Shown here: positions 3,532-22,471 of the stretch, one piece after another | Numbering within the stretch: position 1 is the first letter of the stretch | Layout of the letters: each line of letters opens with the position of its first letter | Virus record (IMG/VR): IMGVR_UViG_3300010233_000067 | Span: 14,268-41,629 of that record | Length of the DNA: 27,362 bases | Strand: one strand, 5' to 3' | From: a virus | The notes under the pieces: generated by a model | Told to the model about the DNA's origin: nothing | Seen by the model: the letters and a program-made list of their open reading frames with translations, nothing else | Database searches by the model: none | Translations under genes and position numbers: made by a program

Positions 3532-3549
3532 TAAGAATAGGAAAAAATA

Positions 3550-4083: not shown

Positions 4084-4096
4084 TACACATCCTGAT

Positions 4097-4118: not shown

Positions 4119-4141
4119 TGACGGACTAAAAGGAATAAAGA

Positions 4142-4600: not shown

Positions 4601-4734
4601 TGAAGGTGATTAAGGCTCCGGAAGCCGAACAGAAAGTCAAAGAGTTGACTGAGGTGAAAGAGCCCACCAAAAGGTCGGCACAACAGATACGTAATCTACT
4701 CTACGGTAAGGAAGTTATTAATGAGCAAAAGTGA
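4600..4734 (+). CDS. Small basic protein of 44 residues
   Basis: A short frame from ATG 4600 (overlapping the preceding stop by one base) to TGA 4732-4734. The product starts MKVIKAPEAEQ, is rich in Lys and Glu, and should be a single amphipathic helix followed by an SAQQIRNLLYGKEV segment. It overlaps the next gene by 14 bases and exactly fills an otherwise empty 120-base gap in a genome that wastes little space, which is the main reason to believe it. No family recognised. Confidence 0.5.
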   Translation: MKVIKAPEAEQKVKELTEVKEPTKRSAQQIRNLLYGKEVINEQK

Positions 4735-5322: not shown

Positions 5323-5326
5323 GTAA

Positions 5327-5653
5327 ATGGTCACTAAATTGCCGAGCATGGTTGACATGGCCTTGACTAAAGACGAACAGGTAGAGATGATGACTCCGTC
5401 TCTTCCTCGATACCCATACGGTCTTTGTATCTCACTTTGTGAAGACGAACTAGAGAAACTTGGCATCTCTAAGGAAGACGTAGAGTCTGGCGATATGATT
5501 CATTTCCAGGCACTGGCTAAGGCTACTTCGGTTACAAGATGTGACACGGATAACGGTGAGACTTGTCGTGCCGAGTTTCAAATCATGTTTATGTCTGCCG
5601 AAGACGAAGACAACGAAGGCCGTATGGATACGGTAAGTAAACTCTATCGATAA
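5327..5653 (+). CDS. Capsid staple-like protein (epsilon15 gp10 role)
   Basis: A 108-residue protein resembling small head proteins annotated as capsid staple proteins, which in epsilon15 (gp10) clamp neighbouring capsomers from outside. The key pattern is a short N-terminal tail MVTKLPSM, a Tyr-Pro-Tyr-Gly-Leu element near residue 30, an acidic DELEKLGI helix, then strands carrying the HFQALAKATSV block and a FQIMFM strand. The C-terminal part here is unusually acidic and Cys-containing (C34, C38, C71, C79). The gene ends in a TAA after which the same frame stays open into the next gene (see 5666-6481). The family call is from motif memory. Confidence 0.6.
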   Translation: MVTKLPSMVDMALTKDEQVEMMTPSLPRYPYGLCISLCEDELEKLGISKEDVESGDMIHFQALAKATSVTRCDTDNGETCRAEFQIMFMSAEDEDNEGRMDTVSKLYR

Positions 5654-5668
5654 GGGATCTGTGTCATA
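5651..5668 (+). promoter_or_regulatory. Ribosome site with apparent ATA start
   Basis: AAGGGA at 5652-5657 overlaps the TAA of the staple-like gene and lies eight bases before ATA at 5666-5668. No ATG, GTG or TTG exists in this frame between the TAA and GTG 5771, although the protein pattern of the tail adaptor family clearly begins before 5771. The site therefore points to ATA initiation or to a changed ATG. Confidence 0.5.
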
Positions 5669-6481
5669 GCGGACCAACTTTCAATCTCCAACCGTAGTTT
5701 ACTAGCAATCGGAGCAAGGACACAGATTTCTTCCCTGAACCCTTCAGACGGTTCGGTTGAAGCCAATGCCGTGTCTGTATTATACACCCCGACGTTTGAA
5801 CAACTCGGAAGAGCGGCTCATTGGAACTGCCTCGGCCGCGAGATAGCGATGAGTCTACTCCAGGCAGCCCAGGGGACACCAGAGAATCCTAACGGCAGTA
5901 CATTCAACAATCCACCTTATCCTTGGTTGTATTCATACGCCTATCCTTCTGACTGTCTAGACGTCAGGTACATCACTCCGAGTAATCCACTGGGTACGCA
6001 GTCAGGTGCTCCTCAGACTAGCATCAATAACTCTATAGGCCCCTGGGTTCCAGGCGGTGGGCAGATTCCATACAAAGTCCAGACTATTCTTGACGTCAAC
6101 AACGCCCCGGTTACCGTCGTATTAACCAACCAGTCTCAGGCTACTCTCGTCTACACGGCTAATCAACCTAATCCTGCCGGTTGGGACAGTCTGTTCCAGG
6201 AAGCCATGGTGGCTGCTCTCGGTGCCTTTCTTGTCCCTGCTTTGTCTTTAGACCTTCCGTTGATGGATCGTTGCATCGCCCAGGCAGAGAAAGCCATCAA
6301 GATCGCCCGCACTGCTGATGGCAACGAAGGCGTCACCAGCATGGACCATCTGCCTGACTGGATTCAAGCCAGAGCCGGGGCACAAGGGATGGGTACGTTC
6401 TCTTCCTTCTATAACAACGGTTTCTTTTGTTATTCGAATATGTGCTGGCCAGGATTTTCTGGGGGAAGTTATGGTGATTAG
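5666..6481 (+). CDS. Tail adaptor / tail tubular A-like protein
   Basis: About 271 residues if started at ATA 5666; the first conventional start, GTG 5771, gives 236. The frame upstream of 5771 reads ADQLSISNRSLLAIGARTQI and continues with SSLNPSDGSVEAN. That is the usual N-terminus of the head-tail adaptor (gp4/gp11-like) family: a first helix ending in a Leu-Leu-x-Ile-Gly turn, an isoleucine-serine-serine-leucine element, then an aligned LYTPTFEQLGRAAHWNC helix. The downstream part has a PWLYSYAYPSDCLDVRYI block, a strand-rich middle (LVYTANQPNPAGWDSLFQEA) and a helical end. The product would form the ring joining portal and nozzle. Translation must use ATA, TAA readthrough from the preceding same-frame gene, or reflect an altered base. 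Confidence 0.72.
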   Translation: MADQLSISNRSLLAIGARTQISSLNPSDGSVEANAVSVLYTPTFEQLGRAAHWNCLGREIAMSLLQAAQGTPENPNGSTFNNPPYPWLYSYAYPSDCLDVRYITPSNPLGTQSGAPQTSINNSIGPWVPGGGQIPYKVQTILDVNNAPVTVVLTNQSQATLVYTANQPNPAGWDSLFQEAMVAALGAFLVPALSLDLPLMDRCIAQAEKAIKIARTADGNEGVTSMDHLPDWIQARAGAQGMGTFSSFYNNGFFCYSNMCWPGFSGGSYGD

Positions 6482-6484
6482 CTA

Positions 6485-9400
6485 GTGGGTGCTACACTTA
6501 CTACCCTTAAGAACTCTCTGAATGCGGGCGAGCTTGCTCCCGGTATCTGGGCCCGCCAGGACCTGGATAAGTACGCCCATGGCTGTTCCACGGCTCGCAA
6601 CTTTTTTTCCAACTACAGAGGGGGTATGTCCTCCAGGGCAGGTCTCGCCTATGTCGGGACTTGTAAGCAGCAATACCCGATTCCTCCCCGTGACATTCCG
6701 TTCCAGTTCTCTTTGAACCAGGGCTACGTCCTTGAGTTCGGTGAACTCTATATGCGTGTCAAGTTCCAGGGAGCGTATGTCGTAGAGAATGAGATGATTA
6801 TCACCAGTATTTCTCCGTCTGGTGTATTCACTATCTCTGGTTCTGACGGGTATTCCGTGGGTGATTGGGTCTTCATCAGGACTAATCCTAACGATCCGTT
6901 CAACGACCAGACCTGGATAATAAACACTACTCCTACTGCAGGGACATTTACGGTCACTGATCTCTTCGGCGTACCTCAGACTTCTTTCACTAGTACGTTC
7001 TTCGCAGGTTCGGCCTCAAGGGTGTATACCGCTGTATCTCCGTATCATGCCGTCGATCTCCCGTACCTGAAGTACACCCAATCTGCAGACGTCATGACTC
7101 TGACGTGTGTCAACACGAGTAGTAATACAGAGTACTCCCCGTACTCTCTTGCACGTATCAGTAATACAGACTGGACGTTTACTCCTGATACCTTTGCCAG
7201 TAGCATCTCTGCTCCGACGAGCCTTACTGCCGTGGCTCAATCTTCTGGAACTGTAACTACCTGGTATAGCTATGTCGTAACAGCGGTAGATAACGCCACC
7301 GGTGAGGAAAGTAACCCAAGTACTCCTGTCAATATTCAGAACGTAGATATCTCGATCAATCTAGGAAGTAATACTCTGACCTGGGCTGAGGTATCTGGTG
7401 CCAGTAGTTATAACGTCTATGCCTCGGTTCCAAGTTATACCGTAAATGTTCCTGTATCCAGTCTCTATGGCTACGTCGGGACTGCCCTTGGTCCGTCATT
7501 CACGGACACTAACGTTACACCTGATTTCACCCAGGTCCCTCCGACACACACAGATCCATTCGCCAGAGGCACGGTATCAGAAGTCAACGTCACGGCTGGT
7601 GGCAACGGGGATTACTCACAGCAGACTATTGGTTGGTCGGTTACTACAAGTACAGGCTCTGGCTTCGCCGGGACTCCCGTAGTCAACAATGGCGATCTGG
7701 CTGGATTCGTAATCACTGATCCCGGCAAGAATTACCAGCCTGGTGACACGATTGCGTTTACAGACTCAGGTGGTGGTCTAGCGACTGGTCACTTCACGAT
7801 TACATCACTTCCTGGTAACGGCCAGACATTTACATTAAACACTGTGGTGATTTCATTCTCTGACGTTCCTGTCTTAGGGCCTGATCCTAACGTCATCCTC
7901 GTACCCATCGAGGCGAATACGACACTGACTGCCCAGTCCGTGGCTAACTATCTCAACGCCCAGACGTCGGTGTCTTTGTCACTCTCAGTAGCCCAGTACA
8001 CTTCTTCAGGTAACGAAGTCTTTATTACGTATAAGACTCCTGGAACAGTCGGCAACAGTTATACTATGGGGACGGGTTCTGCTCCGGTGACTATCTCTGG
8101 CGCTACATTGACAGGCGGTGGTACGATGGGATCGGGCGCTACAGCTACATTGAGTATCTCCCCTGAGTCTGGGACTTATCCTGCCGTGGCTGCGTATTAC
8201 CAACAACGCCGTGTCTACGGCAGTAGCCTTAATAATCCTGATACGTACTGGATGACCCAACCAGGTCTCTTTAGTAACATGGACTCAAGTATTCCTGTCA
8301 CCGACGCCGACGCAATTACTGGTACTCCGTGGGCCCAACAGGTCAACGGGATACAATTCCTTGTTCCTATGCCTGGCGGTCTCGTAGTTCTGACAGGTAA
8401 AGGCGCTTGGCAACTCAACGGTGGTGGTACTGCGGCTCTGACTCCTAGCAACCAGGTAGCGACCCCTCAGGCGTATAACGGCTGTAACGGCCTTGTCCCT
8501 CCGATCACGGTGAATTACGACATCCTTTACGTTCAGGCTAAGGGAAGTATCTTCCGAGATCTGGCGTATAACTTCTTCACGAATATCTACACAGGTACTG
8601 ATCTGACGACTCTATCGAGTCATCTATTCACCGACTATTCGATGGTTCAGGCCGCTTATGCCGAGGAGCCTTATAAGCTCGTCTGGGTCGTCCGTAACGA
8701 CGGAACTCTTCTCTGCCTGACTTACCTGAAGGAACAAGAAGTCTCTTCATGGTCTCGCCATGACACGAATGGTCTCTTCATAGGTGTAGTTTCTATCACA
8801 GAACCACCCGTCGATGCCGTTTATGTCATCACCCAGAGATACGTCCAGGGTGGTTGGAGGTATTATTCCGAGAGAATGGATGACAGGACTTGGAACGACG
8901 TCGAAGACGCGTATTGCGTCGACGCAGGCCTGGCTTCCGGTATGGCTACGTTTCCTTATACTCTGACGGTGACTGGTGGTTATAAACTAGGTGACACTGT
9001 GGCGTTATCAGCCACGGGAAATAGTTTCACCGGTGCCCAGATAGGAAGTATCCTTAGGGTCGGTGGCGGTAAGATACAGATCACCGGAATCAACACCGGG
9101 ATGTCGGCGACTGGAACCGTGACCCAGACTATAACAAGCATAGTCCCGAATGATCCGAGTAACACAGTAGAACCTGCAACGGCAGGGACATGGTCTATCT
9201 CTCCTGTCATCACCCAGGTTACTAATCTGAATCATCTCAACGGATTGACGGTGACTGGTTTGGCGGATGGTTCGGTGATACCTCCACAGGTCGTAGTGAA
9301 TAACACAGTGACACTTCCTAATCCTGCGTCACAGGTTCTTATCGGCCTGCCGTTCACGGCACAGGTCCAGACGGTGTATTGGGACCACGAGAGCCAACAA

Positions 9401-9727
9401 GGCACTGCCCAGAATAGATTCAAGAATATCACAGCCGCTGGTGTCCGTGTCGAGTCATCCAGAGGTATCCAAGTCGGTGCAGACCAACCCGACAGCAGCA
9501 CCCTTCAGAATTATCCCCAGACGACTTGGACGGATATGAATGAAATCAAGGAGAGGACTAATCAAGTCTTTGCTGGATCGGCCGTACCTTTGTTTACCGG
9601 AGATTTCTATAAAACAGTAACCAGTGGCTGGAATCTAAAAGGTCAAGTAGCTATCCAACAAGTCTATCCCCTGCCTGCCAATATCCTTGGTATTATCTTT
9701 TACGTCACAGAAGGCTCAGACAAGTGA
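6485..9727 (+). CDS. Tail nozzle-like protein with inserted Fn3-like domain
   Basis: A 1080-residue virion protein; start GTG at 6485, three bases after the preceding stop. Residues 1-100 carry the diagnostic opening of podovirus nozzle/tail tube proteins: a KNSLNAGELAPGIWAR segment, a DLDKYAHGCSTARNF helix and a GGMSSRAGL turn. Residues 242-350 look like a fibronectin type III fold (APTSLTAVAQ, TWYSYVVTAVDNATGEESNPS, TWAEVSGASSYNVYA). Residues 360-565 are Gly/Thr-rich strands. The conserved core resumes at 566-815 with AYYQQRRVYGSSLNNPDTYW, VLTGKGAWQL, DLTTLSSHLFTDYS, a WVVRNDG strand and YYSERMDDRTW. The end (820-1080) is again beta-rich and closes the tail tip. It overlaps the next gene by 4 bases (GTGA). 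Confidence 0.8.
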   Translation: MGATLTTLKNSLNAGELAPGIWARQDLDKYAHGCSTARNFFSNYRGGMSSRAGLAYVGTCKQQYPIPPRDIPFQFSLNQGYVLEFGELYMRVKFQGAYVVENEMIITSISPSGVFTISGSDGYSVGDWVFIRTNPNDPFNDQTWIINTTPTAGTFTVTDLFGVPQTSFTSTFFAGSASRVYTAVSPYHAVDLPYLKYTQSADVMTLTCVNTSSNTEYSPYSLARISNTDWTFTPDTFASSISAPTSLTAVAQSSGTVTTWYSYVVTAVDNATGEESNPSTPVNIQNVDISINLGSNTLTWAEVSGASSYNVYASVPSYTVNVPVSSLYGYVGTALGPSFTDTNVTPDFTQVPPTHTDPFARGTVSEVNVTAGGNGDYSQQTIGWSVTTSTGSGFAGTPVVNNGDLAGFVITDPGKNYQPGDTIAFTDSGGGLATGHFTITSLPGNGQTFTLNTVVISFSDVPVLGPDPNVILVPIEANTTLTAQSVANYLNAQTSVSLSLSVAQYTSSGNEVFITYKTPGTVGNSYTMGTGSAPVTISGATLTGGGTMGSGATATLSISPESGTYPAVAAYYQQRRVYGSSLNNPDTYWMTQPGLFSNMDSSIPVTDADAITGTPWAQQVNGIQFLVPMPGGLVVLTGKGAWQLNGGGTAALTPSNQVATPQAYNGCNGLVPPITVNYDILYVQAKGSIFRDLAYNFFTNIYTGTDLTTLSSHLFTDYSMVQAAYAEEPYKLVWVVRNDGTLLCLTYLKEQEVSSWSRHDTNGLFIGVVSITEPPVDAVYVITQRYVQGGWRYYSERMDDRTWNDVEDAYCVDAGLASGMATFPYTLTVTGGYKLGDTVALSATGNSFTGAQIGSILRVGGGKIQITGINTGMSATGTVTQTITSIVPNDPSNTVEPATAGTWSISPVITQVTNLNHLNGLTVTGLADGSVIPPQVVVNNTVTLPNPASQVLIGLPFTAQVQTVYWDHESQQGTAQNRFKNITAAGVRVESSRGIQVGADQPDSSTLQNYPQTTWTDMNEIKERTNQVFAGSAVPLFTGDFYKTVTSGWNLKGQVAIQQVYPLPANILGIIFYVTEGSDK

Positions 9728-10176
9728 TTACCCTTGTCCCGTCTGAACTGAAACACGTCCGTGAACTCTCTAGGAGTATGCGTGAGAACGACAAAAAAGA
9801 GGCTAGAGCCCTTGGATTGATCCCACACCATGCCCTGTTTTATGCGTATAAGCACGCCTGCTTCAGAAGAACGGCATTGGTTGACGGGAGGGTGGCGGCG
9901 ATGTGGGGCGTCGTAGGAACTCCTCTGGGTCTTGTGGGTCAGCCCTACCTGATCACCGGGACTGAGTGTGACGGTGTCTCCCCGATTGCTTTCGCTAAGG
10001 TTTATCTCAAAGAACTTCAGGCGATGGCCAGGATATTTCCTATCTTAGAGAACTACGTCGATGCCGAATACACGGGAGCCGTAGGGATGCTCGAGCTCGC
10101 AGGTTTCAACCTGACTGAGGAAACGACCTTCCATGGTCATAGATTCTATAAATTCACGATGAAGACGGGTATATAA
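9724..10176 (+). CDS. T7 gp13-like internal virion / GNAT-fold protein
   Basis: A 150-residue protein with a GTG start overlapping the nozzle stop. It resembles the T7 gp13 (internal virion protein A) family, which has an acetyltransferase-like (GNAT) fold: an N-terminal ELKHVRELSRSMRENDKKEARAL-type helix, a central strand pair with TALVDGRVAAMWGV, a LGLVGQPYLITGTE strand, a helix, and a late YVDAEYTGAVGMLELAGF segment as in GNAT C-termini. T7 gp13 is needed for making functional virions, though it is not retained in quantity. Whether this one acetylates anything is unknown. The clear acetyl-CoA P-loop Q/RxxGxG/A is not evident, so a non-enzymatic role is possible. Confidence 0.72.
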   Translation: MITLVPSELKHVRELSRSMRENDKKEARALGLIPHHALFYAYKHACFRRTALVDGRVAAMWGVVGTPLGLVGQPYLITGTECDGVSPIAFAKVYLKELQAMARIFPILENYVDAEYTGAVGMLELAGFNLTEETTFHGHRFYKFTMKTGI

Positions 10177-10177
10177 T

Positions 10178-10879
10178 ATGGCATTTATCGCCCCTGCTCT
10201 TGCTTTACTAGGTTCTGCTGCTGCCCCGGCAGGAGCTGCCGCTGCTGATATAGGATTCACGGGTGCCTCGGGTGCCGCTCTATCGGCAGGTGCTCTTTCG
10301 GCGGCTACTCCAGCCCTTGGGGCGACTGCTGCAGCCTCGTCCTTCCTTCCGGTACTAGGATACGCCAGCACGGGTCTTAACGCCCTAGGGGGCGCTGTAG
10401 GAGCTCTGGGAGCAATCCAGACTGCACAGGCCCAGGCAGGGGCGGCTAAAGAGAATGCCGCTATTGCTACTATCAACCAGAATCAGGCGACAGAGAATGC
10501 CACACTAGCCAGTGAGGCGGGTTCTGCCCAGGCAGGTATCCAGTCCCAAAAGGCTCGTGCCCAAGTCGGTTCGATTATAGCCAACCAAGCCGCCGGTGGT
10601 ATCGACGTCAACACAGGCTCGGCTAAAGATACACAGCTTTCAGAGAGAGACGTCGGTGAACTAGACGCCCTACAGGTCAGAAGCAATGCCACGAAGGAAG
10701 CCTACGGCTACCAGACCCAGGCGACGTCTTTTGGTGACCAGGCGGCTCTTGATACCACAGAAGCCAAGAACGCCCAGACGGCAGGTAATCTAAACGCCGC
10801 CAGTACCTTCCTGGGTGGACTCGGCTCTGCCGGTAGCACGTATGCGAAGTATCAACTCTCTGGCGGATTCGGGTACTAA
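10178..10879 (+). CDS. Ala-rich ejection protein, T7 gp14-like
   Basis: A 233-residue protein in the place of the T7 gene 14 (internal virion protein B), whose product forms the outer-membrane part of the ejection channel. The first ~85 residues are rich in Ala, Gly and Ser with hydrophobic runs. Residues 85-200 form a long Gln/Ala helix with AQAQAGAAKENAAIATINQN and a central IIANQAAGGIDVNTGSAKDT turn, a recurrent pattern in gp14-like proteins (helix, Gly-Val/Ile-Asp-x-x-Ser turn, helix). The Gly-rich end reads SGGFGY. The call is from composition, this turn motif and gene order. Confidence 0.7.
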   Translation: MAFIAPALALLGSAAAPAGAAAADIGFTGASGAALSAGALSAATPALGATAAASSFLPVLGYASTGLNALGGAVGALGAIQTAQAQAGAAKENAAIATINQNQATENATLASEAGSAQAGIQSQKARAQVGSIIANQAAGGIDVNTGSAKDTQLSERDVGELDALQVRSNATKEAYGYQTQATSFGDQAALDTTEAKNAQTAGNLNAASTFLGGLGSAGSTYAKYQLSGGFGY

Positions 10880-10918
10880 ATGGCACGAACTGCACTTAAA
10901 ACCAGAGAGGTCGCTTGA
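10880..10918 (+). other. 12-codon bridging minicistron
   Basis: ATG 10880 directly follows the TAA of the gp14-like gene, and the frame ends in TGA 10916-10918, which shares its A with the ATG of the next gene. It encodes MARTALKTREVA and contains the next gene's ribosome site (AGAGAGG, 10904-10910). It probably serves translational coupling rather than making a functional peptide. Confidence 0.35.
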
Positions 10919-13263
10919 TGGCTGGTCCTGCTCCAAGAGATACGTACAACCCGACTCAATCCGTAGAACCACAGACCAGCACCCCGAATGACTATCTAAA
11001 CGTCAGGGCGACTCCTCAGGACTTCGGTGCCCAGGTCGGGCAGGCGACGGAAGGTCTCGGTAAGACTACAGAAGCCGTGGGTACAGAGGCAGGTAATGCC
11101 GGTGTGGCTTACCAGGGTATGCTTAACGAACACGCAGCCAACCAGGCAGAACTCGCCCTCGCTACAGACGGCGGTGAGGTGTATAATAAGTATAAGAGTC
11201 TCGCCGGCCTGGATGCAGCCAACGCCCGTCCTCAGGCTATCCAAGACTATCTAGCCGTAAACGACAAGATCAGGAACTCCCTTGGTAATCCGGCGGCCCA
11301 GCGTGCCTACGACCAGATGGCTTCCCGGAGGATCTCGTTCACCGTCCAGGACATGAACGGCTACGCTGCAGAACAGACCCAGAAGGCATTCAAGACTGGT
11401 AATCAAGCCAGCCAGGCTCTTGCGATAGACACGGCCAGCAGATATTCAGTCGCTACCGATCCGAAGCAGTTCGGGACTCTTTCTACAGGCCCGGTGATCT
11501 TCACGACTAATACAGATTTCACCGCCCCTGGTTGGGGTAAGTACCAGACGCTGCCAGTCAGCACAGACAAGACTACCGGCAGGTTGCAGTTCGATACGAG
11601 TACGGATCAAGGGAAAGTAGCTCAGGCTGACTACGACAACACGTTGAATGTCGCCCTAGGCAAGGCGTATTCTAATGCCGCGATCTCTATCGCCATCGAT
11701 CCCGATCATGGTAACTACACGAATGCCATGAACTTCGTCCTACAGAACAAGGACAAGATGCCTAGTGCTACGTTCAACGAACTCTCCCAGAGACTAGATC
11801 CGATGTATCGGTCGGAACAAACTCGGATCATAGCGACTAACGTCATCGCCGGAGGACATGCCGCCTATCTCAACGGACAGATCGGGCCGAGTACTCCTGA
11901 CACCCTGACGAATATCTTCCTGAATCAAGAATCCGGTAACGGAGCCACGAGTACGAACATCGGACAGATCCAACCCGGTACATGGTCACAGTTCGCAAGA
12001 CCCGGTGAAGATATCAACAACCCGAATGACAACCGTGCAGTCACCCAGAGGATACTAAGTAAGTATAACTCCGACTACCAGGGCGACGTCTCTCGTATGG
12101 CCGTGGCTTACTTCTCGGGTCCGGGTAACGTCGCTCCACCTGGTTCGGCAACGCCATGGATTCAAGACAGAACAGATAAGACCGGTAAGTCTGTATCCAG
12201 CTATGTCTCAGACATCAATTCCAAGGCTGGTAGTACGGGTAATCTAGTAGACTACCTGGGTATGCACGAGGCAGATTACGCCCTCCAGGCCCGGAAGGAC
12301 GCCGCAGATCACGGCTTCGATATCACTGTCCAAGACGCAGCAGCCGAGAGGGTCCATACCCAGATCGCCGAAGCGAGGTCGTATCAGCAGAGTGAAGCCC
12401 GTGCTCTACGTGATAACTTCGTCAAGATGGTTACAGACGACAAGCATCCTATTACTTCTGAAGCCGCACTGGATTACAACCAAGACCCGAAGGTGAAACA
12501 GGACTGGATAAACTACCAAGCCCTTGATCCCTGGGGTGCGTCTGCCATCAAGTCAAGAATCAACCAGCAGGCTAGAGGTTTATCCAAAGTCTACGGTACA
12601 GACTTTTATTCCCACTACGCCGATGTACTGGACGGTAAAGTAAAGCCCGACGATCTCCAGAGCTACTTCGGTGGAGACAACGCCCCAATCTCTGCGTCTG
12701 GGACTGCGATCTTAGACAAGGCTTATGCCAACATGCAGACCCCTCAGGGACAGGCGTTTGCCCACGCAGAGAGACAATTCCTTGACAGTGTCGAAGGACA
12801 GGTCACTGGAAGTAAAGTCTTTCCAGGTATCAATCCGGCTATCCTTAAGGGTGCATTCGATAAGCAATTGATGGAACTGATCCCTCAGATTGAAGCCAAG
12901 AGAGCCGATCTTACCAGCCAAGGCAAGAATCCTGCTGATATGTTTGATCCGAATAACAAGACGGATTACGTCGGTAAGAATGTCCGTCCTGTAGATCTCG
13001 ACAAAGCCATCAAGGCGATGGTTACATCAAGTATGTCCAGGACTTCTTCCTCAACCACTGCGGCTACGTCTACCCAGCCTCAGGCTCAATCTCAAGCCCC
13101 TCAAACTACTCAGGCCCCTGAGACATATAAGACTATAGACGACGTCGGTCGTGCCTGGCAGGCAGGTAAGTTTGGCAAAGGTCCGGCTGCAGAAGCCAAG
13201 GCTTACAAAATCATTCAAGATCAGTTCGGCGGTTTCGCCCCTGGAATCCCTAAACCCCAGTAG
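10918..13263 (+). CDS. Ejection protein with lytic transglycosylase domain
   Basis: A 781-residue virion protein that would be injected to open peptidoglycan, as T7 gp16 does. The start at ATG 10918 is preferred over the in-frame TTG one codon earlier because AGAGAGG ends seven bases upstream and the ATG overlaps the bridging TGA. A goose-lysozyme/SLT-type transglycosylase domain lies about residues 325-440: catalytic Glu338 in FLNQESGNG, then NIGQIQP (about 347-353) and VAYFSGPGNV (about 396-405), equivalent to the AYNxGPG motif. The N-terminal 320 residues are helical and Gln/Ala-rich. The C-terminal half is helical with a Ser/Thr/Gln linker (about 705-735). No signal peptide, as expected for a packaged protein. 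Confidence 0.85.
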   Translation: MAGPAPRDTYNPTQSVEPQTSTPNDYLNVRATPQDFGAQVGQATEGLGKTTEAVGTEAGNAGVAYQGMLNEHAANQAELALATDGGEVYNKYKSLAGLDAANARPQAIQDYLAVNDKIRNSLGNPAAQRAYDQMASRRISFTVQDMNGYAAEQTQKAFKTGNQASQALAIDTASRYSVATDPKQFGTLSTGPVIFTTNTDFTAPGWGKYQTLPVSTDKTTGRLQFDTSTDQGKVAQADYDNTLNVALGKAYSNAAISIAIDPDHGNYTNAMNFVLQNKDKMPSATFNELSQRLDPMYRSEQTRIIATNVIAGGHAAYLNGQIGPSTPDTLTNIFLNQESGNGATSTNIGQIQPGTWSQFARPGEDINNPNDNRAVTQRILSKYNSDYQGDVSRMAVAYFSGPGNVAPPGSATPWIQDRTDKTGKSVSSYVSDINSKAGSTGNLVDYLGMHEADYALQARKDAADHGFDITVQDAAAERVHTQIAEARSYQQSEARALRDNFVKMVTDDKHPITSEAALDYNQDPKVKQDWINYQALDPWGASAIKSRINQQARGLSKVYGTDFYSHYADVLDGKVKPDDLQSYFGGDNAPISASGTAILDKAYANMQTPQGQAFAHAERQFLDSVEGQVTGSKVFPGINPAILKGAFDKQLMELIPQIEAKRADLTSQGKNPADMFDPNNKTDYVGKNVRPVDLDKAIKAMVTSSMSRTSSSTTAATSTQPQAQSQAPQTTQAPETYKTIDDVGRAWQAGKFGKGPAAEAKAYKIIQDQFGGFAPGIPKPQ

Positions 13264-13296
13264 ATGTATAACGTCGTAACGGAATTTCATTCCTGA
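13264..13296 (+). other. 10-codon bridging minicistron
   Basis: ATG 13264 abuts the TAG of the transglycosylase gene. The frame ends at TGA 13294-13296, whose A starts the next ATG. It encodes MYNVVTEFHS. The following gene has only a weak, distant ribosome site (ACGGAA, 13280-13285 region), so translation coupling through this tiny frame may matter. Confidence 0.35.
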
Positions 13297-15218
13297 TGCC
13301 AAGTAATATAGATCAAGAAACCTTTGCTAACCAGTACCGTCCTGATGTTACGCAGGAAGATTTTGCTAATAAATTCAGACCAGACGAATCCAGTGGTGTC
13401 AATCAGTGGAATATAGACGCCTATACTAATATGGCTCCTCCTGATGTCGATAAAATGGTATCGAATATACATCAGGCGTATGTCCAAAAAGGTCCATTCA
13501 CAGGGAGTGTCTCAGACCAACTCTTTAATCAAGGACCAATAGGCCGTATCATGTCCGCCTTTGGTCAGAATTTCAAAGACAGTTGGGACGGATCTGGTGA
13601 AAGTAACTATCAGATTGAACTTGAAAAAGAAGCCAAGGAACATGACGTCAATCTACTGACGGCCATCAGGAATGCAGTAAACAAACCTGCTGCTGCTGCC
13701 TTAGACTTTATTTCGAAGGCTCCATATGCCGCTATGGCTGGTGTTTCGGGTGCAGTAGAGCAGTCTGCCGAAGAACTTAATAAGACCGGGCAAGTCTTCT
13801 ATAACGATCCGAATTCAGCTATTCTGGGAAAAGCTCTTGGTTATCCCTTATTGGCTGGCGCTGAAATCTTGTCAGGCTATGCCCACGGTGCGGGTATGGA
13901 AGGTGGTATCGAAGACCCGATTCATCAAGTCGATCACGTCCAGCAGATACTAGAAGCCCGTTCGAAGGGCCAAGTAGGTGAAGGCGAGGCCGGTTTCTTT
14001 AAAGTCAAAGAACCATCTCCTGAAGATATCGAAGCAAGACAGAACGCAGCCCACTTAGCCGGAATCGACATGAGTCCTCCAGAAGAGGCTCCGAAGTTTG
14101 TTCCTACCGTGGATGAACTTGCTGCCCAGATGGACCCAGATACATTTAATAAATTAAACCATCTGACTGATGTTCAAGAAAATCTTCGTAGCAGTCGTGA
14201 CAGTCTTATGGCGCAGGTCAAGGACAGCACTGATCCTCAGTATCTGTATAAAGATCAACAGAGAATCAAAAGCCAGCTCGAAGACATTCCGACTCGTCTA
14301 CAAGAAATAGACGAACAGTTACGAGACTTAATTCCCGATGTAAACTCTGCCCGTGAAAGGTCAGAAGAACTCCTGAATTCCCAGAGTCCTGAAGGCGACG
14401 CGTATAGGAATCTAGTCCAGGCCCAGGCATTCGAGAAAGCTCTGGCTGCACAACCAGTAAAGGCCAAGGCAGAAGAGACTCTTCGTCTTGCTAACGACCT
14501 CAAAGAAGTCAGTCAACCTGATGCTAAGCCTGGTACTACAGGAACAGACACCAAGACGAATCCTCAAGCCACAGATACATCTCCCGCAGGTACATCTAAG
14601 ACTACTATTACTAAAACCAAGAAACAGCCAGAAGTCAAACTCTCTCCCGAAGCTGTATCAGGGATGAGTACACTTAAGAAAGTCCAAGGTACTGGTGAAA
14701 AGACTCCGTTATCATTAAACCAAAGACTCGAAATCGACTCTGTCTTAAAGGGTTGGAAGTCTGAAGTCGGTGAAGTCCCACAGGAAGAAGCCCTGAAGAC
14801 TGAGCAACAGCTGACAGAAGCCCAAAGATTGGCTGATGACAGTCTACCGACTGCTACAAGAGTCGCTATGGGCGATGCCGAAGTTCCTGAAGGCTATAAC
14901 GTACACCCAGAAGCAGTTCTTAGGATACTTAAGAAAAGAGCCGAGGATACTGGAGACGTTGCTTTAGGCCTGAAACTTGCAGACACTAGACTGGCGGGTG
15001 AGGCCCGTACGATGGGTCAGAGGTTGAACTTACTCCGTGGGATATATGACATCGATCCCGTGGGTATCATCCAAGATCTGAATAATTCTTGGAAAGACGT
15101 CGCTAGCAAAAAGATAGCTGACACAGTGAAAGACATCAAAAAAGAAGTAGATGACGCCATGGCGACGTTCGCGCCCGATCTCAAGGCTTTTGCCGAATCC
15201 ATAAAGTGTGATTACTGA
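13296..15218 (+). CDS. Large internal virion (ejection) protein, first part
   Basis: A 640-residue helical, hydrophilic protein between the transglycosylase gene and a second large internal protein. Residues 7-32 are two tandem 13-residue units (QETFANQYRPDVT and QEDFANKFRPDES). Residues ~115-205 contain short hydrophobic stretches (AAAALDFISKAPYAAMAGVSGAV, read as an amphipathic or membrane-active segment). Residues ~300-410 are a likely coiled coil rich in Glu, Arg and Gln. A Thr/Lys-rich linker (~425-465) leads to a helical C-terminal region ending KLADTRLAGEARTMGQRL. This architecture fits proteins carried inside the capsid. Gene order gives the ejection role; no enzyme motif was seen. 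It overlaps the next gene by one base (TGATG). Confidence 0.68.
   Translation: MPSNIDQETFANQYRPDVTQEDFANKFRPDESSGVNQWNIDAYTNMAPPDVDKMVSNIHQAYVQKGPFTGSVSDQLFNQGPIGRIMSAFGQNFKDSWDGSGESNYQIELEKEAKEHDVNLLTAIRNAVNKPAAAALDFISKAPYAAMAGVSGAVEQSAEELNKTGQVFYNDPNSAILGKALGYPLLAGAEILSGYAHGAGMEGGIEDPIHQVDHVQQILEARSKGQVGEGEAGFFKVKEPSPEDIEARQNAAHLAGIDMSPPEEAPKFVPTVDELAAQMDPDTFNKLNHLTDVQENLRSSRDSLMAQVKDSTDPQYLYKDQQRIKSQLEDIPTRLQEIDEQLRDLIPDVNSARERSEELLNSQSPEGDAYRNLVQAQAFEKALAAQPVKAKAEETLRLANDLKEVSQPDAKPGTTGTDTKTNPQATDTSPAGTSKTTITKTKKQPEVKLSPEAVSGMSTLKKVQGTGEKTPLSLNQRLEIDSVLKGWKSEVGEVPQEEALKTEQQLTEAQRLADDSLPTATRVAMGDAEVPEGYNVHPEAVLRILKKRAEDTGDVALGLKLADTRLAGEARTMGQRLNLLRGIYDIDPVGIIQDLNNSWKDVASKKIADTVKDIKKEVDDAMATFAPDLKAFAESIKCDY
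13314..13391 (+). repeat. Two tandem 13-residue coding units
   Basis: Residues 7-19 and 20-32 of the internal virion protein align without gaps, sharing Q-E, F-A-N and R-P-D positions. The DNA copies differ in many third positions, so selection is keeping the peptide pattern. Confidence 0.75.
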
Positions 15219-17434
15219 TGGCTTATTGTCTACCAAGAGCCCTTGTAAGTAAGTTCCAAGCTGCCGTAGATTCTGGCTTTCTTAATCCCAAAGAATTAGG
15301 AAAGATATCATCAGAAGATCGGTTCAACCGTATCTCTTCTGTAGTAGGTGAAGACAACGCCAGCCAAGTCAATGCCACATTCGAGAAAGGCATCTTACTA
15401 GAACGTCGTCAACTCGGTTTCAACAACTGGGTCCGACAGATGCGTGGTGAAATGAAAGGTCAGGTTTCTCAGAAAGAGAGGGCCCTGGAGAATGTCGTTG
15501 ACAAAATCAACAACCTCGATGATCGGATTCTGAATCCGCACTTCGAGAAGAACTTTATGGCAGATCTAGCCGCCGAACAACTCGGAGCCAAGGTCTCGTT
15601 AGAAGACGCCAAAGGTATCTTCGAGCTTGCCCAGAAAGCCAAGGATGCCAAGACTGAGTGGCAGAAGGATCTCGCGACTAAGGTAAAGTATAGAGACTAT
15701 AACAATCCTCTTTATAAGGTCCGTATAGACTACGGCGATGCCTTACAGGCACTTCAAGACAAGATTGATACATCTAAACCTAACGGTAAGGGTTTCATCG
15801 AAAATGCCCTGAATACCCTTCTTGTACCTAAGACGGCTGAGACAGGCATTTTCCATCTCTCGGCTTTCGGTGTCCAGTCCTGGGGTTCTTTAGGTCGAGC
15901 GGCGACATACCAAGCCCTGGTCCATCAGTTTAGATATCTTTGGGATCAGAAGCACTACGACGAATTGATGTCGTACATCGTGTCACATCCTGATTATAAG
16001 ACATTGAAGGATGCCGGGTTGGGTCTTGTAGACGTTTCTGACCAACTCTCTAGTAGAGAAGAGGCAATTCAGAGTTCTCTCCTTCAGCAGTTAAATACAT
16101 ACGTAGCCGAACAAGGTGGCAAAGCTCTTAACTTAAACCAACCACTTCCTATCAATATCGTTGGTGCGTCTAGCAGAGCCTTTACAGGATTCCTGAATTA
16201 TCAGAGATTCACGATTGCGACGCAGCTTCTAGACAAGGCCCGTAGAGCCCAAGGAGAAGGCTTCTTCAATCAACTTCTGGATAGAGGTACGGCAGAAGGT
16301 AAAGAGCCTCTGGATCAACAGACTATCTCCGACATAGCAAGTACTGTTAATAACTTTTCCGGACGAGGTAACCTGGGTCCTGCAGAAGGAGCCCACAAGA
16401 TGCAGCAGCTTCTGAATGCCTTGTTCTTCGCTCCGCGTAAAGTCGTGGCGACGGCTCAGATGTTTAACCCCTGGGAATACGGCAGGTTGTACGGTGAAGC
16501 CAGCAAGACTGGAAACTACACGGCGGCCAACGCAGCAGTTCAGAATCTTATGTCTTCTGTGGTAATCACAGGGGCAGTTATAGGAACAGCCAAGGCATTC
16601 GGGTATCAAGTCAACCTAGACGCCACGAGCCAAGACTTTCTCAAAATCGTCCATGGCGAAGAAAAGTATGACATCACCGGTGGTTCTGCTATCTGGCTTC
16701 GTCTTCTTGGTAGGTTGTATGCCAATAGAGAAATTATGGCTAGGAATAAAGAGATCGAACTCGGAGGTTCGGGATACAAGCCCCTGACTAGGGCAGATCT
16801 TATCACTAAGTACATCTCCGGGAAGTTCTCTCCTGCGGCAAGCATCTTCTCTGACGCCCTTATGGGCGAAGATCCCGTTGGTAACGACTTCTCGATGACA
16901 AGAGAATTTCGTGACAAGATGCAACCAATCGTGATGGGTTCGTTGATCTCTTACTGGAGACAGAATCCAGACAAGAGTATCTATGACCTACCCGTCCTGG
17001 CTAGTATCCTTGGTATACAGGCAGAGAGCCCTACACCGCCATTGATTCGTAAAGGGATGTCTGTCTGGGGAGAACCTGATCCTGTGTGGACCGACCCCGT
17101 ACGGACTGACTTTGATAACAAACTGGACAAGACGGGGTACATTCCTAATTTTCCTGGTGATACTATTAAAGGCGTCAAACTAACAGACAATCAGTATAGA
17201 CAGTATATCCAGATGTCTGGAAGCTTTGCAAAAGCAAGACTCGAGAATCTTCTATCGTCTCCTAGTTTCAACACGACTAGGCCAGAGCTTCAACAACTTC
17301 AGGTTAAGCAATTCGTTCAAGGGGCCAGGAATCAAGCTTCGGGCATCATCGAACAGCAGAGTAAAGGTACGTCTAACGACATAGTCGATAAGATGATTAA
17401 AGACATCAAAGAAAAATATGGGATAACCAATTAA
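15218..17434 (+). CDS. Large internal virion (ejection) protein, second part
   Basis: A 738-residue helical protein; ATG shares its A with the preceding TGA. It carries motifs that recur in the C-terminal parts of very large phage internal or polyvalent proteins: VNNFSGRGNLGPAE (about 377-390) followed by LNALFFAPRKVVAT (399-412), then DFLKIVHGEEKYDITGG (473-489) and WLRLLGRL (493-500). A hydrophobic helix, VVITGAVIGTAKAF (448-461), could touch membrane. The opening MAYCLPRALVSKFQAA also resembles an internal boundary of such proteins, so this gene and the one before it may correspond to a single longer protein in relatives (combined 1378 residues, close to the T7 gp16 size). An ejection role is inferred. 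Confidence 0.7.
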   Translation: MAYCLPRALVSKFQAAVDSGFLNPKELGKISSEDRFNRISSVVGEDNASQVNATFEKGILLERRQLGFNNWVRQMRGEMKGQVSQKERALENVVDKINNLDDRILNPHFEKNFMADLAAEQLGAKVSLEDAKGIFELAQKAKDAKTEWQKDLATKVKYRDYNNPLYKVRIDYGDALQALQDKIDTSKPNGKGFIENALNTLLVPKTAETGIFHLSAFGVQSWGSLGRAATYQALVHQFRYLWDQKHYDELMSYIVSHPDYKTLKDAGLGLVDVSDQLSSREEAIQSSLLQQLNTYVAEQGGKALNLNQPLPINIVGASSRAFTGFLNYQRFTIATQLLDKARRAQGEGFFNQLLDRGTAEGKEPLDQQTISDIASTVNNFSGRGNLGPAEGAHKMQQLLNALFFAPRKVVATAQMFNPWEYGRLYGEASKTGNYTAANAAVQNLMSSVVITGAVIGTAKAFGYQVNLDATSQDFLKIVHGEEKYDITGGSAIWLRLLGRLYANREIMARNKEIELGGSGYKPLTRADLITKYISGKFSPAASIFSDALMGEDPVGNDFSMTREFRDKMQPIVMGSLISYWRQNPDKSIYDLPVLASILGIQAESPTPPLIRKGMSVWGEPDPVWTDPVRTDFDNKLDKTGYIPNFPGDTIKGVKLTDNQYRQYIQMSGSFAKARLENLLSSPSFNTTRPELQQLQVKQFVQGARNQASGIIEQQSKGTSNDIVDKMIKDIKEKYGITN

Positions 17435-17475
17435 TGACGCAGCTAAATAAACAGCTAAGAAGGGCTGCTACATGA
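17434..17475 (+). other. 13-codon bridging minicistron
   Basis: ATG 17434 shares its A with the preceding TAA. The frame encodes MTQLNKQLRRAAT and stops at TGA 17473-17475, overlapping ATG 17472 of the fibre gene (ATGA). The AGAAGGG ribosome site of the fibre gene (17458-17464) lies inside it. Confidence 0.35.
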
Positions 17476-18311
17476 CAATCAGTACAGTAACGAGTACAAT
17501 TACGTATGTAGGTAACGGGGCTACTACGGTCTGGACTTTTCCGTTTGTCGCCGATAGTGCGTCAGACCTGACTGTGGTTCTTATCAATACCAGTACGGGT
17601 GTCATCACTACTCTCGGTCCGACACAGTATTCAGTAGTCCTGAACAACCCTCCGACTGGAGGTCTCTGGGGTATCGGTGGAGCAGTGACTTATCCGTTGT
17701 CTGGCAGCCCGATTCAGATCGGTACGAATATCGCTATCACCAGGGATGTCCCGTATGAACAGAACATAAGCATCTCTAACCAGGGTTCGTTTTATCCCCA
17801 GGCGGTAGAGCAAGCCCTTGACATCCTAGAACTCCAGATACAGCAACTCGCTACCGACCAGGAATACTCTCTCCAGGTTCCAGTCACTGATCTGATTCCC
17901 CCCAACGTTCTACCTTCAGCGGCGGCCAGGGCGGGTGGTACGTTGAGTTTCGACAGCACGGGTCAGCCTGTGATAACCTTCCCTGGATCTGGCAACATAC
18001 CTACTCCGGGTCAGTTCGCTAATCCCAGAAGGATCGCCGTCTCGGGGACGAATACGACTAACATCCTGGTCGGAGATTCCTTCGCAGGTGTGTCTATCTC
18101 CCAGGCCAGTCCTAGTACGACTACGCTCCAGCTACCAGCCACCGAGGGTCCTTGGCCTATCTTTGACGCATCAGGCAACGCAGGTACATACCCTATCACT
18201 GTCCTGCCTTCGTCTGGTAAGACTATCAATGGTCAGACAAGCTATATACTAGCCTTCAATTATCAAAGTATTACCGTTTATTTCGACGGAACTCAGTTCC
18301 TCGTAGCCTAA
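17472..18311 (+). CDS. T7-type tail fibre N-terminal / adaptor protein
   Basis: A 279-residue protein whose first ~155 residues match the virion-attachment domain of T7-type tail fibres: YVGNGATTVWTFPF at the start, a YSVVLNNPP strand, GGAVTYPL, an ITRDVPYEQ block, a FYPQAVEQALDILELQIQQL helix and a terminal LQVPVTD. The remaining ~125 residues are a small beta domain (SGTNTTNILVGDSFAGVSIS and later strands) ending in a YFDGTQFLVA strand. There is no long shaft or depolymerase-like beta helix, so it is either a very short fibre or an adaptor to which another receptor-binding protein docks. AGAAGGG eight bases before ATG is the ribosome site. Confidence 0.78.
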   Translation: MTISTVTSTITYVGNGATTVWTFPFVADSASDLTVVLINTSTGVITTLGPTQYSVVLNNPPTGGLWGIGGAVTYPLSGSPIQIGTNIAITRDVPYEQNISISNQGSFYPQAVEQALDILELQIQQLATDQEYSLQVPVTDLIPPNVLPSAAARAGGTLSFDSTGQPVITFPGSGNIPTPGQFANPRRIAVSGTNTTNILVGDSFAGVSISQASPSTTTLQLPATEGPWPIFDASGNAGTYPITVLPSSGKTINGQTSYILAFNYQSITVYFDGTQFLVA

Positions 18312-18320: not shown

Positions 18321-18659
18321 ATGTCATTCACAGACTATTTTATTAACAAGGCGATTGATTCAGGCTTCCTGAAGAGTCGTATCCAGGCTGCTGTTAGAGC
18401 CCTTGCAATGGCCGGAGGCAGCTATCTTGTCCAGCATGGGCTGGCTAACCAGGAGATCTCACAAGCCGTTGTAGGTGCCGTTGTAGGCCTCGTAGCCCTG
18501 TATCTACAGGACCTAGACGTAAAGGTCGTGGACGGTAAGATCAAGATCGCCCTGAAGACTAATCCACCCGACTCTATCCCGTCTGGTAATTTGACACCAG
18601 ATGAAGAAAAGGCCGAGACTGCCGTACTCAACAACGCCGAAGCAAATAAAAACAAATGA
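18321..18659 (+). CDS. Putative holin (two membrane segments)
   Basis: A 112-residue protein in the lysis position at the end of the late operon, with AAGGAG upstream. Two hydrophobic helices, about residues 22-40 (AAVRALAMAGGSYLVQHGL) and 47-63 (SQAVVGAVVGLVALYLQ), are followed by a polar, charged tail ending in NAEANKNK. The pattern of Arg-x-Leu, AGGSYLVQHG and a Gly-rich second helix is like the small holin-like proteins of the Pam3 gp28 group. Holins make the inner-membrane lesion that lets the endolysin act. The identification rests on topology, context and this resemblance, so I keep it as putative. Confidence 0.6.
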   Translation: MSFTDYFINKAIDSGFLKSRIQAAVRALAMAGGSYLVQHGLANQEISQAVVGAVVGLVALYLQDLDVKVVDGKIKIALKTNPPDSIPSGNLTPDEEKAETAVLNNAEANKNK

Positions 18660-19581: not shown

Positions 19582-19784
19582 GATTCATCCTCCTGTATCA
19601 GTTTGATCAGCTGGGCATGTGTAAGACCTTCAAGATCGTGTTCTCTGCCTCGTTTGTCACGAACGATACGCTGTTGATACTTCCCTGACACGATGAGCTC
19701 CTTTGCGATTACAGAACGGACTCGTTCTTTCTTCTTACGTTTCAAACGCTTGCTATGACGAATCTTGTCTTCCATACTTCCCAT
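19578..19784 (-). CDS. Small very basic protein of 68 residues
   Basis: Lys/Arg-rich N-terminal half (KIRHSKRLKRKKKERVRS), then a folded-looking part with KYQQRIVRDKRGREHDLEGL and a helix THAQLIKLIQEDES. Such charge suggests nucleic-acid binding. ATG 19784 follows the RNR stop by two bases; a second ATG at 19775 is possible but is only one base from a GGGAAG sequence, so the first is preferred. No family recognised. Confidence 0.6.
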   Translation of the reverse strand: MGSMEDKIRHSKRLKRKKKERVRSVIAKELIVSGKYQQRIVRDKRGREHDLEGLTHAQLIKLIQEDES

Positions 19785-19786
19785 CT

Positions 19787-22471
19787 TTAACTACAGGTTG
19801 GTTGACCCGTAACCTCATCTATCTTGCAGACTTCTACAGAGTCCTCATCCGAGACATACTCTTTTACTTCGGGTTTCTTCTCAACGAGGATTCCCATCCT
19901 CTTACCTGCACTTCTGAAGGTAGTTACTCCCTTACAGTTACCGTCATAAGCCGTCATGTAGATATCCTTGAACTGCTCCCAGGTGACATCAGGTCCGACG
20001 TTACATGTCTTACTACAGGCGGAATCGACCCATCTCTGGGCATTGACCAGTACCGAGACATGTTCTTCTGGTGAGAGTTCATTGGCAGTCCTACCCTTTA
20101 CTCCCCACTCCCTGAATCCAAAGTCGGTGACGTCTTCGTGTACCGCCCCTTCTTCTTTGATAATCGTCCGGGTATAACTATGAGTAAACACGGGCTCGAT
20201 ACCTGACGAGATGTTGTCTGCCGCGAGGGAGATAGTTCCCGTCGGTGCGATTGATAACAGGTGTGAGTTACGTATCCCGTACTTGGCAATCCCTTCGCGA
20301 ATGGGATCAGGAAGGGTTCTGATAAAGGACCCTTCGAGATACTTCTCTGAGAAAAGAGGGAACGGGCCTTTCTCTTTAGCGAGTTCGATGCTTGTTTCAT
20401 AAGCAGTGTCACGGAGAATCCTGAGTATGTCATTCATTACCTCTATAAATGCAGAAGAACCGTAAGGCATCTGGAGCCTCTCTAGAGCATTGGCCAGACC
20501 AGTTACTCCGAGACCCATACGACGCTTACTCTTGCCTTCAGTCTCCTGTTGAGGCAAAGGATAGATTCCTAGGTCCATGATGTTATCCATCGCCCTCACG
20601 ACTGCACGGATATCTTCCTTGAAGAGTTCGTAGTCAAACCTTGCTCCTTCGGCCTTCAGAATTTTGAAGTCCTGGATGTACTTAGTCAGATTGAACGAGC
20701 CTAGGAGACATGCGCCATAAGGAGGAAGAGGTTGTTCCCCGCAGTTGGATACGAGAAGACCCCCGGTCCAATACGTATGTTCATCTGCTTCTACGGTGAT
20801 ATCATAAACAGGATGGATACCTAGATCGCGGACTTCAGTGATTTCAAAAGTAGTCTTGGCTTTATTTGAAAGCCTGGCTGTATCTAATAACCTGGCTTGC
20901 TTATAGGTATGAATGAATCCAATGATGTCTCTGAACTTGAATCGATCCTTACTGATATTTAGATCATAACTCTGTTTACATTCATATTCTCCATTACTAA
21001 ACAGGACAGTGTTAGGCTTGTTAGTAGTAATATATGAGCTGATACCAATAGAGGATAGCATCTCTTGAACGTCTTCAATAAGACCTCTGGAGGCTGCCTT
21101 AAGTGTCACTCTGTTACCACAGACAGAGCCATTAGCTGCATACAACCCTTGAAGAAAACCTACGACAATCCCAGAAGATCCTTGAAAGAATCTCTTCGGT
21201 ACACGGCGTTCATAAGTCTTAGGGAGTTCATCTGAAGTAATAGTAGTCTTGACTTCCCAACCATGTTTAAAGCTACGACGTCGGTCGGCTACTACATATT
21301 CACCAAGGAAATCATGAAAGACGTCATCGTTGTTACCGAGACAAAGATAGACTAGATCATTACTGGCCTTATGGACAGATCCGTCTCCCAGTACCCAGCC
21401 ATCCACTATGTGCTGTTTACTAAATCCTTCATAGAAAGATAAAGGTCCAGTAGAAATATCTATAGCGTCTGCGTCTTTGACTTCGATCTTATAACCATTT
21501 TGAACTACACGATGATTCTCTGTTCCAAGGAATCTACCTGCATTAGTTATATACTCGTTGACTTGTTTATCACCTGTGTATTCTATGTTAGTCACTTTAG
21601 TCCAACGCTGACCAGACCAAATCGTAGAGCCACACTCTATGTCGTCAAGAGTGACTATACCATTAGGCGTAAGAACAGTCGCAAAACCTGGTTGACAGGG
21701 ATTCGTGGCAGCAATAGTCTCACAGTACCAAAGATTGTTCTCCTTGTTGATCCTGTCGATGAAGAGGACACCAGGCTCTGCCCAATCCCAAGTACTCCGC
21801 ATAATCGCGTCCCAGAGAGTCCTGGCTCTGACAGTCTTATGGACCTTGCCATGGAAGCGGAGATTGAAATCCTTATCCTTCTTGACACAGTCCATGAAGT
21901 GATCCGTGATACCGACAGAGATATTAAACGCAGTAAGTTTATTCTCATTCCTTTTGGCATGAATAAACTCTTCAATATCGGGATGGTCTACTCGAAGAAC
22001 CCCCATCTGCGCCCCACGTCTATGACCGGCGCTGCTAATAGTCCCGCAGACGCTGTTAAAAATGTCCATGAAGCTAACAGGACCTGAGGATGACGAACCA
22101 AGAGACTTGATAAGACTACCTCTGGGACGTAGAGTAGAAAAATCGTATCCAATACCACCACCAAGTCGCATCGTATGACCGGCCTCTTTCGCAAGGTCCA
22201 TGATGGAATTGAAGTCATCTGAGATAGTCCCACTTACAAAACAATTCCAAGGAGTGACTCTTTTAGGGGCCCCAATGGCAGCCTGCACTCTCCCGGCAGG
22301 CATGAAGCGCATGTCTCCGAATATATCCGTAAGGGCTCGCCTGTGGGCGTCGTTGTCTGATAGATTACTTGACAACCTGTTGACGCAGTCCTCGAACGTC
22401 TCACCCACGTTCCGGTACTTGGTTTCATGGATTTCCTTAGAGATAGAAAGGGTAGGACCGTACTTAATCAA
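19787..22471 (-). CDS. nrdJ: Class II ribonucleotide reductase with intein
   Basis: An 894-residue precursor of an adenosylcobalamin-dependent ribonucleotide reductase, which reduces ribonucleotides to deoxyribonucleotides for phage DNA synthesis. Class II signs are GGGIGYDFSTLRPRG (104-118), a SSAGHRRGAQMGVLRVDHPD run starting at 146, and SIAPTGTISLAADNISSGIEP starting at 740. Residues 259-576 are an intein; splicing leaves 576 residues with the restored motif NPCGEQPLPPYGAC. Cys77 (WNCFVSG) and Cys588 are the expected reducing pair, and Cys577 carries the thiyl radical; the 11-residue Cys577-Cys588 spacing equals that of Thermotoga maritima NrdJ Cys322-Cys333. Cys882 and Cys893 form a plausible C-terminal shuttle. 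The start is TTG (TTGA overlap), preceded at once by an in-frame TAA. No small subunit is needed. Confidence 0.92.
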   Translation of the reverse strand: MIKYGPTLSISKEIHETKYRNVGETFEDCVNRLSSNLSDNDAHRRALTDIFGDMRFMPAGRVQAAIGAPKRVTPWNCFVSGTISDDFNSIMDLAKEAGHTMRLGGGIGYDFSTLRPRGSLIKSLGSSSSGPVSFMDIFNSVCGTISSAGHRRGAQMGVLRVDHPDIEEFIHAKRNENKLTAFNISVGITDHFMDCVKKDKDFNLRFHGKVHKTVRARTLWDAIMRSTWDWAEPGVLFIDRINKENNLWYCETIAATNPCQPGFATVLTPNGIVTLDDIECGSTIWSGQRWTKVTNIEYTGDKQVNEYITNAGRFLGTENHRVVQNGYKIEVKDADAIDISTGPLSFYEGFSKQHIVDGWVLGDGSVHKASNDLVYLCLGNNDDVFHDFLGEYVVADRRRSFKHGWEVKTTITSDELPKTYERRVPKRFFQGSSGIVVGFLQGLYAANGSVCGNRVTLKAASRGLIEDVQEMLSSIGISSYITTNKPNTVLFSNGEYECKQSYDLNISKDRFKFRDIIGFIHTYKQARLLDTARLSNKAKTTFEITEVRDLGIHPVYDITVEADEHTYWTGGLLVSNCGEQPLPPYGACLLGSFNLTKYIQDFKILKAEGARFDYELFKEDIRAVVRAMDNIMDLGIYPLPQQETEGKSKRRMGLGVTGLANALERLQMPYGSSAFIEVMNDILRILRDTAYETSIELAKEKGPFPLFSEKYLEGSFIRTLPDPIREGIAKYGIRNSHLLSIAPTGTISLAADNISSGIEPVFTHSYTRTIIKEEGAVHEDVTDFGFREWGVKGRTANELSPEEHVSVLVNAQRWVDSACSKTCNVGPDVTWEQFKDIYMTAYDGNCKGVTTFRSAGKRMGILVEKKPEVKEYVSDEDSVEVCKIDEVTGQPTCS
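20744..21697 (-). mobile_element. Intein with LAGLIDADG endonuclease region in the RNR
   Basis: A 318-residue protein intron, residues 259-576 of the RNR precursor. The splicing blocks are clear: Cys1 in CQPGFATVLTPNG with TLDDIECG (block A), GTENHRVV (block B, usually TxxH), and VYDITVEADEHTYWTGGLLVSN (blocks F/G) before Cys +1. The penultimate residue is Ser, not the usual His. The middle holds a homing endonuclease region: the first dodecapeptide HIVDGWVLGDGSV (354-366) keeps the acidic residue before Gly. The second, VGFLQGLYAANGSV (437-450), has Asn where catalytic Asp is expected. By eye the segment is more AT-rich than the flanking RNR, as for a transferred element. Confidence 0.92.

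Follow-up and report, generated by a model that had tools for sequence, protein, structure and literature searches.

Three tiny open reading frames bridging gene junctions in a podovirus ejection module are candidate ribosome relays

Three gaps between the ejection and tail-fibre genes of a viral genome are each filled by an open reading frame (ORF) of 10–13 codons, which begins at the stop codon of the preceding gene and ends on the start codon of the following gene. The homologous junctions in relatives are tight and free of such ORFs. Here, we propose that the tiny ORFs are relay mini-cistrons, which would have arisen in this lineage as 32–38 nt were gained at overlapping or nearly overlapping junctions. 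We hold this reading tentatively, with a probability of about 0.48. The analyzed stretch of DNA, called the window, is 27,362 nt long and is part (positions 14,268 to 41,629) of the 41,629-base virus record IMGVR_UViG_3300010233_000067.

A PHROGs search identified the plus-strand block 2485–18311 as the head–tail–ejection module of an epsilon15/SPN1S-like podovirus. It encodes, in order, the major head protein (PHROG 212), a tail protein (PHROG 376), two small internal virion proteins (PHROGs 308 and 418), three large proteins, and a tail-fibre protein. The succession of a tail protein, two small internal virion proteins, and large ejection proteins is that of an epsilon15/SPN1S-like ejection module, and the order matches that in Salmonella phage SPN1S (NC_016761). 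The large proteins are designated ej1, ej2, and ej3, which are working names of the present analysis. The genes around the three gaps are as follows.

10178..10879, plus strand: ivB, internal virion protein, PHROG 418 (PHROGs E = 7e-18), ending in YQLSGGFGY before the stop codon
10918..13263, plus strand: ej1, ejection protein of 781 amino acids with a weak SLT transglycosylase domain (Pfam PF01464, E = 7e-5); homologues in the relatives L002, L003, and L004
13296..15218, plus strand: ej2, 640 amino acids, without a database family (no PHROG match); 43% identity to L004
15218..17434, plus strand: ej3, 738 amino acids, without a database family (no PHROG match); 50% identity to L004
17472..18311, plus strand: tail fibre/tail protein with a conserved N-terminal domain (PHROG 1640, E = 2e-23)

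The ej2 and ej3 genes are joined by a direct TGATG overlap. A holin-like protein of the Pam3 gp28 family (PF23987) is encoded directly 3' of the fibre gene (18321–18659, plus strand). On the minus strand, 19787–22471 encodes a ribonucleotide reductase large subunit (PF02867) with a LAGLIDADG domain at residues 436–488, which is probably an intein.

When the sequence was read directly, the coordinates, the codon counts of 12, 10, and 13, and the junction types given in the original prediction proved exact to the base.

10880..10918, plus strand: tiny ORF 1, MARTALKTREVA and a stop, 12 codons. TAA (10877–10879) is followed immediately by ATG GCA CGA ACT GCA CTT AAA ACC AGA GAG GTC GCT TGA, and the TGA overlaps the ej1 ATG at 10918 (TGATG)
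13264..13296, plus strand: tiny ORF 2, MYNVVTEFHS and a stop, 10 codons. TAG (13261–13263) is followed immediately by ATG TAT AAC GTC GTA ACG GAA TTT CAT TCC TGA, and the TGA overlaps the ej2 ATG at 13296 (TGATG)
17434..17475, plus strand: tiny ORF 3, MTQLNKQLRRAAT and a stop, 13 codons. From TAATG (17432–17436) it reads ATG ACG CAG CTA AAT AAA CAG CTA AGA AGG GCT GCT ACA TGA, with an ATGA overlap with the fibre ATG at 17472

The start-to-start distances at junctions 1, 2, and 3 are 38, 32, and 38 nt, respectively. Tiny ORFs 1 and 2 lie in the frame of the upstream gene (ivB and ej1), and tiny ORF 3 overlaps the ej3 stop codon in another frame. At both ends of all three tiny ORFs, stop and start codons overlap or lie within a few nucleotides, as at termination–reinitiation junctions.

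The original prediction also held that such a repeated pattern is hard to see as chance, and a strict test agrees. In the strict pattern, an ATG abuts or overlaps the stop of the gene before, and the frame closes with a stop that shares bases with the ATG of the gene after. With gap sequence drawn from an order-2 Markov model, its probability per gap was 0.0006, 0.0015, and 0.029 for junctions 1, 2, and 3 (product ~3e-8). In a survey of 793 same-strand gene pairs from the present genome and its relatives, which yielded 133 gaps of 18–70 nt, 4 strict cases were observed versus 0.77 expected from shuffles, and 3 of the 4 lie in the window. With a looser definition, the count was only about twice the expectation over the whole panel (8 observed, 3.7 expected). 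By arithmetic from the survey counts, the probability of at least three cases in the present genome, with about nine such gaps, is ~2e-5 (strict) or ~2e-3 (loose); these and the other P values overstate the surprise, because gene starts in the survey were mechanically called and the pattern was chosen post hoc.

The nearest relatives covering the ejection genes are L004 (39–65% protein identity), L003, L002, and L070; the searched collections may omit records very near the window, and closer relatives could exist. At the ivB–ej1 junction, the ivB stop overlaps the ej1 start as TAATG in L004, L003, and L002, and the two genes overlap by 8 nt in L070. The distance is mostly −1 to +14 nt among ~30 more distant relatives, the next gene being not callable at a few junctions; the exceptions are L044 (43 nt) and L075 with its near-identical copies (80 nt), and neither gap is bridged. 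The ivB proteins of the window, L004, and L003 all end at one aligned position, and ej1 begins with MAGP in both the window and L004. With both the end of ivB and the start of ej1 in register with L004 and L003, the window has extra DNA between them. Junctions 2 and 3 are covered in fewer relatives than junction 1 and are also tight there. The ej1–ej2 junction of L004 is a 2-nt gap without tiny ORF 2, which is likewise absent in L002, and the ej3–fibre junction is TAATG in L004 and TAAATG in L002. The fibre start lies in an ATGA overlap in L061 and behind a 3-nt gap after an unrelated gene in L060.

Several relatives differ in other ways around these genes. L081 has a differing ivB end followed by a 2-nt gap. 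A single ORF of 1545 codons (9925–14562) stands in place of ej2 and ej3 in L003, and the two genes may be fused or replaced there. In L060 and L064, the gene before the fibre gene ends in sequence that, read by eye, resembles an HNH-type homing endonuclease.

None of the relatives (L004, L003, L002, L070, and the ~30 distant ones, comprising viral and genome contigs) carries any of the tiny ORFs. The original prediction had named the same junctions in related genomes as its check, and the lack of conservation in every relative examined amounts to half of the outcome that it set against itself. Annotated phage relatives are only distant for ivB, and none was found for ej1. As a control, a 44-codon ORF at 4600–4734 (plus strand; MKVIKAPEAEQKVKELTEVKEPTKRSAQQIRNLLYGKEVINEQK) bridges another gap; its start overlaps the stop of the gene before as TAATG, and it also overlaps the gene after it. 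It is conserved at 50–60% in L004, L073, L002, and others, and thus a real bridging gene of this size is detectable by the present methods. Peptides of 10–13 codons are near the limit of homology search; more telling is the lack of space for them at the homologous junctions. Based on these comparisons, the window lineage probably gained 38, ~32, and 38 nt at junctions that had been tightly coupled. We infer the direction of change (gain here, not loss in the relatives) by parsimony from few close relatives.

The ribosome-binding sites differ among the three junctions. Two Shine–Dalgarno (SD) sites and two predicted hairpins lie within or next to the tiny ORFs.

10904..10910, plus strand: AGAGAGG, SD site of ej1 within tiny ORF 1 (duplex energy dG −7.1)
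17457..17463, plus strand: AAGAAGG, SD site of the fibre gene within tiny ORF 3 (duplex energy dG −5.5)
10856..10909, plus strand: predicted hairpin of CUCUCUG (10856–10862) at the ivB 3' end with CAGAGAG (10903–10909) in the ej1 SD region (z = −1.5, weak)
17434..17473, plus strand: predicted hairpin of the tiny ORF 3 AUG with CAU at the fibre start, and of GCAGCU (17439–17444) with GGCUGC (17463–17468) (z = −1.4, weak)

The SD of ej2 is weak and badly spaced (duplex energy −3.5 kcal/mol). At the starts of tiny ORFs 1, 2, and 3, the values are −4.8 (at a poor distance), 0.0, and −4.0 kcal/mol, compared with a median of −2.5 at random positions; the ATG of tiny ORF 2 has no SD upstream. Since the tiny starts have little SD, translation there would depend largely on ribosomes arriving from the preceding gene. 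Tiny ORF 2 and ej2 have the poorest sites among the three junctions, and because ej2 is without a usable SD, junction 2 is the critical case, at which a relay would make the largest difference. The predicted hairpins would make the ej1 SD and the fibre start codon inaccessible to de novo initiation, which is suggestive only. No significant RNA structure was detected at junctions 1 and 3 (z ~ −1.5) or at junction 2, and the L003 junction gave a similar value. The junctions had no Rfam match, and no tRNA was found. A frameshift from a tiny ORF into the next gene was also considered and rejected, as no slippery sequence was seen by eye.

In the proposed mechanism, a ribosome ending ivB, ej1, or ej3 would restart at the ATG touching the stop codon and read 10–13 codons, melting local structure, and would then reach a stop codon overlapping the start of the next gene. 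In this way, the spacer would not interrupt the overlap-type coupling within the ejection/fibre operon, and two of the spacers would additionally supply a good SD for the gene that follows. Nothing is required of the peptides themselves. In E. coli reporters, a gap of ~20 nt nearly abolishes termination–reinitiation (PMC10666635), and therefore spacers of 32–38 nt would uncouple the genes if nothing bridged them. Termination–reinitiation needs no more than the final 15 nt of the upstream ORF, and engineered upstream nonsense ORFs of at least 8–10 codons with an internal ribosome-binding site raise the expression of the next gene (PMC13255528). That the tiny ORFs may be translated and relevant to expression is suggested by the exact stop–start chain at all three gaps, which is beyond chance by the strict test, and by relatives with the same gene order, in which the junctions are TAATG, TAAATG, or no more than a few bases wide. 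Against the relay stand the occurrence of the pattern in one genome only, without conservation or codon evidence, and the good SD sites of ej1 and the fibre gene within the tiny ORFs, owing to which these two genes may not need a relay. The idea of the original prediction that the tiny ORFs carry ribosomes across the gaps is therefore partly upheld: the direct overlaps and near-overlaps of the relatives and the published effect of a ~20-nt gap speak for it, and the unconserved tiny ORFs and the downstream SD sites speak against it. Overall, the relay reading is plausible and partly backed by the comparison, though not by tiny-ORF conservation.

A neutral origin is nearly as good an explanation and follows close behind the relay; we regard it as a serious possibility. 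Here, the junctions would have overlapped in the ancestor, the tiny ORFs would be what is left of short insertions or of C-terminal tails cut off there, and the downstream genes would start independently from their own SD sites. Either the ATG at the stop would be the original start or the stop overlapping the next ATG would be the original gene end, with the remainder due to chance. With the overlap inherited, one half of each pattern needs no selection to account for it. If an ATG is already present at the stop, the probability of a bridge is 0.012, 0.079, and 0.53 at junctions 1, 2, and 3; the high value at junction 3 suits the neutral origin, but chance closure of all three is still ~5e-4 with an inherited ATG, or 5e-5 with an inherited stop. 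Direct repeats flank the extra DNA at junction 1 (ATGGC...ATGGC) and junction 3 (ATGAC...ATGAC) and give the impression of a start duplicated on either side of an insert. L075 illustrates the severing of a tail: its 80-nt gap after ivB (19717–19796) contains, in the +1 frame, GSVAPTVDSSFGTVGSGSAYPSQ and a stop (~23 codons), which is apparently the severed C-terminal tail of ivB, with no bridging ATG. In L004, AGAAGG precedes the fibre gene inside the last ej3 codons, and its likeness to the AAGAAGG inside tiny ORF 3 of the window would fit an ej3 tail cut off as tiny ORF 3, although the match is too short to decide. The SD sites of ej1 and the fibre gene would permit independent starts, but junction 2, without a good SD, speaks against this reading.

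Programmed or leaky stop readthrough is improbable. It would add in-frame extensions of 12 and 10 codons to ivB and ej1 after TAA/ATG and TAG/ATG, consistent with the frames of tiny ORFs 1 and 2, and the ivB tail of L002 is ~11 residues longer than the others. However, the extensions are dissimilar to that tail, the shared ivB end residue in L004, L003, and the window argues against an extension, no readthrough motif was identified, and junction 3 is left unexplained because tiny ORF 3 is out of frame with ej3. Slightly less probable still is a mobile element resembling the mycobacterial interspersed repetitive units (MIRUs), which would have targeted stop/start overlaps three times and duplicated ATGGC or ATGAC. 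The flanking repeats and the equal length of 38 nt at two sites would suit such an element, but the three inserts share no sequence (pairwise ≤50% ungapped) and have no copies elsewhere in the genome beyond chance. Functional micropeptides, the other option raised for these open frames with ATG starts, are the least probable, as the peptides are absent at all homologous junctions examined and the tiny ORF 1 pattern had no match in 2.9 million viral contigs, whereas the real small gene at 4600–4734 is clearly conserved.

If functional, the relays would represent natural short ORFs that serve solely to deliver ribosomes between genes with co-required products, and would show how coupled operons absorb spacers while keeping their coupling. 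A clean test is possible, because the corresponding junctions of the relatives lack the spacer. By analogy, the tiny ORFs would work like overlap-type coupling, nonsense-ORF boosters, and MIRUs. Overlap-type coupling (TGATG/ATGA, termination–reinitiation; PMC6728339, PMC10666635) resembles both ends of each tiny ORF and the homologous junctions of the relatives; the difference here is an additional cistron of 10–13 codons between two real genes. The synthetic upstream nonsense ORFs (nfORFs; PMC13255528) and bicistronic designs likewise place an ORF of ~10 codons immediately upstream of the target, with the target SD inside, as at junctions 1 and 3. The lengths of 12, 10, and 13 codons are within the range of at least 8–10 codons, and two of the three tiny ORFs have a good internal SD. 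The engineered ORFs have their own upstream ribosome-binding site, whereas the tiny starts are nearly or wholly without one, and initiation there would draw on ribosomes from the preceding gene. MIRUs insert at coupled starts, and their internal ORF keeps the coupling (Supply et al. 1997, as reviewed in PMC12548453). The common features are short DNA at a coupled start, a small ORF overlapping the downstream gene, and coupling left intact. MIRUs are repeated, related elements, whereas the present inserts are unrelated, 32–38 nt long, and in a phage; the tiny ORFs share no repeat and are thus not members of MIRU-type repeats. The inserts do carry a small overlap-restoring ORF at an ancestral coupling site, with gain rather than loss resting on parsimony. 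The broader proposal, that three independent, sequence-unrelated mini-cistrons evolved in one lineage as ribosome relays restoring or tuning coupling after overlap loss, and so form a nonrepetitive counterpart of MIRUs, is rather unlikely.
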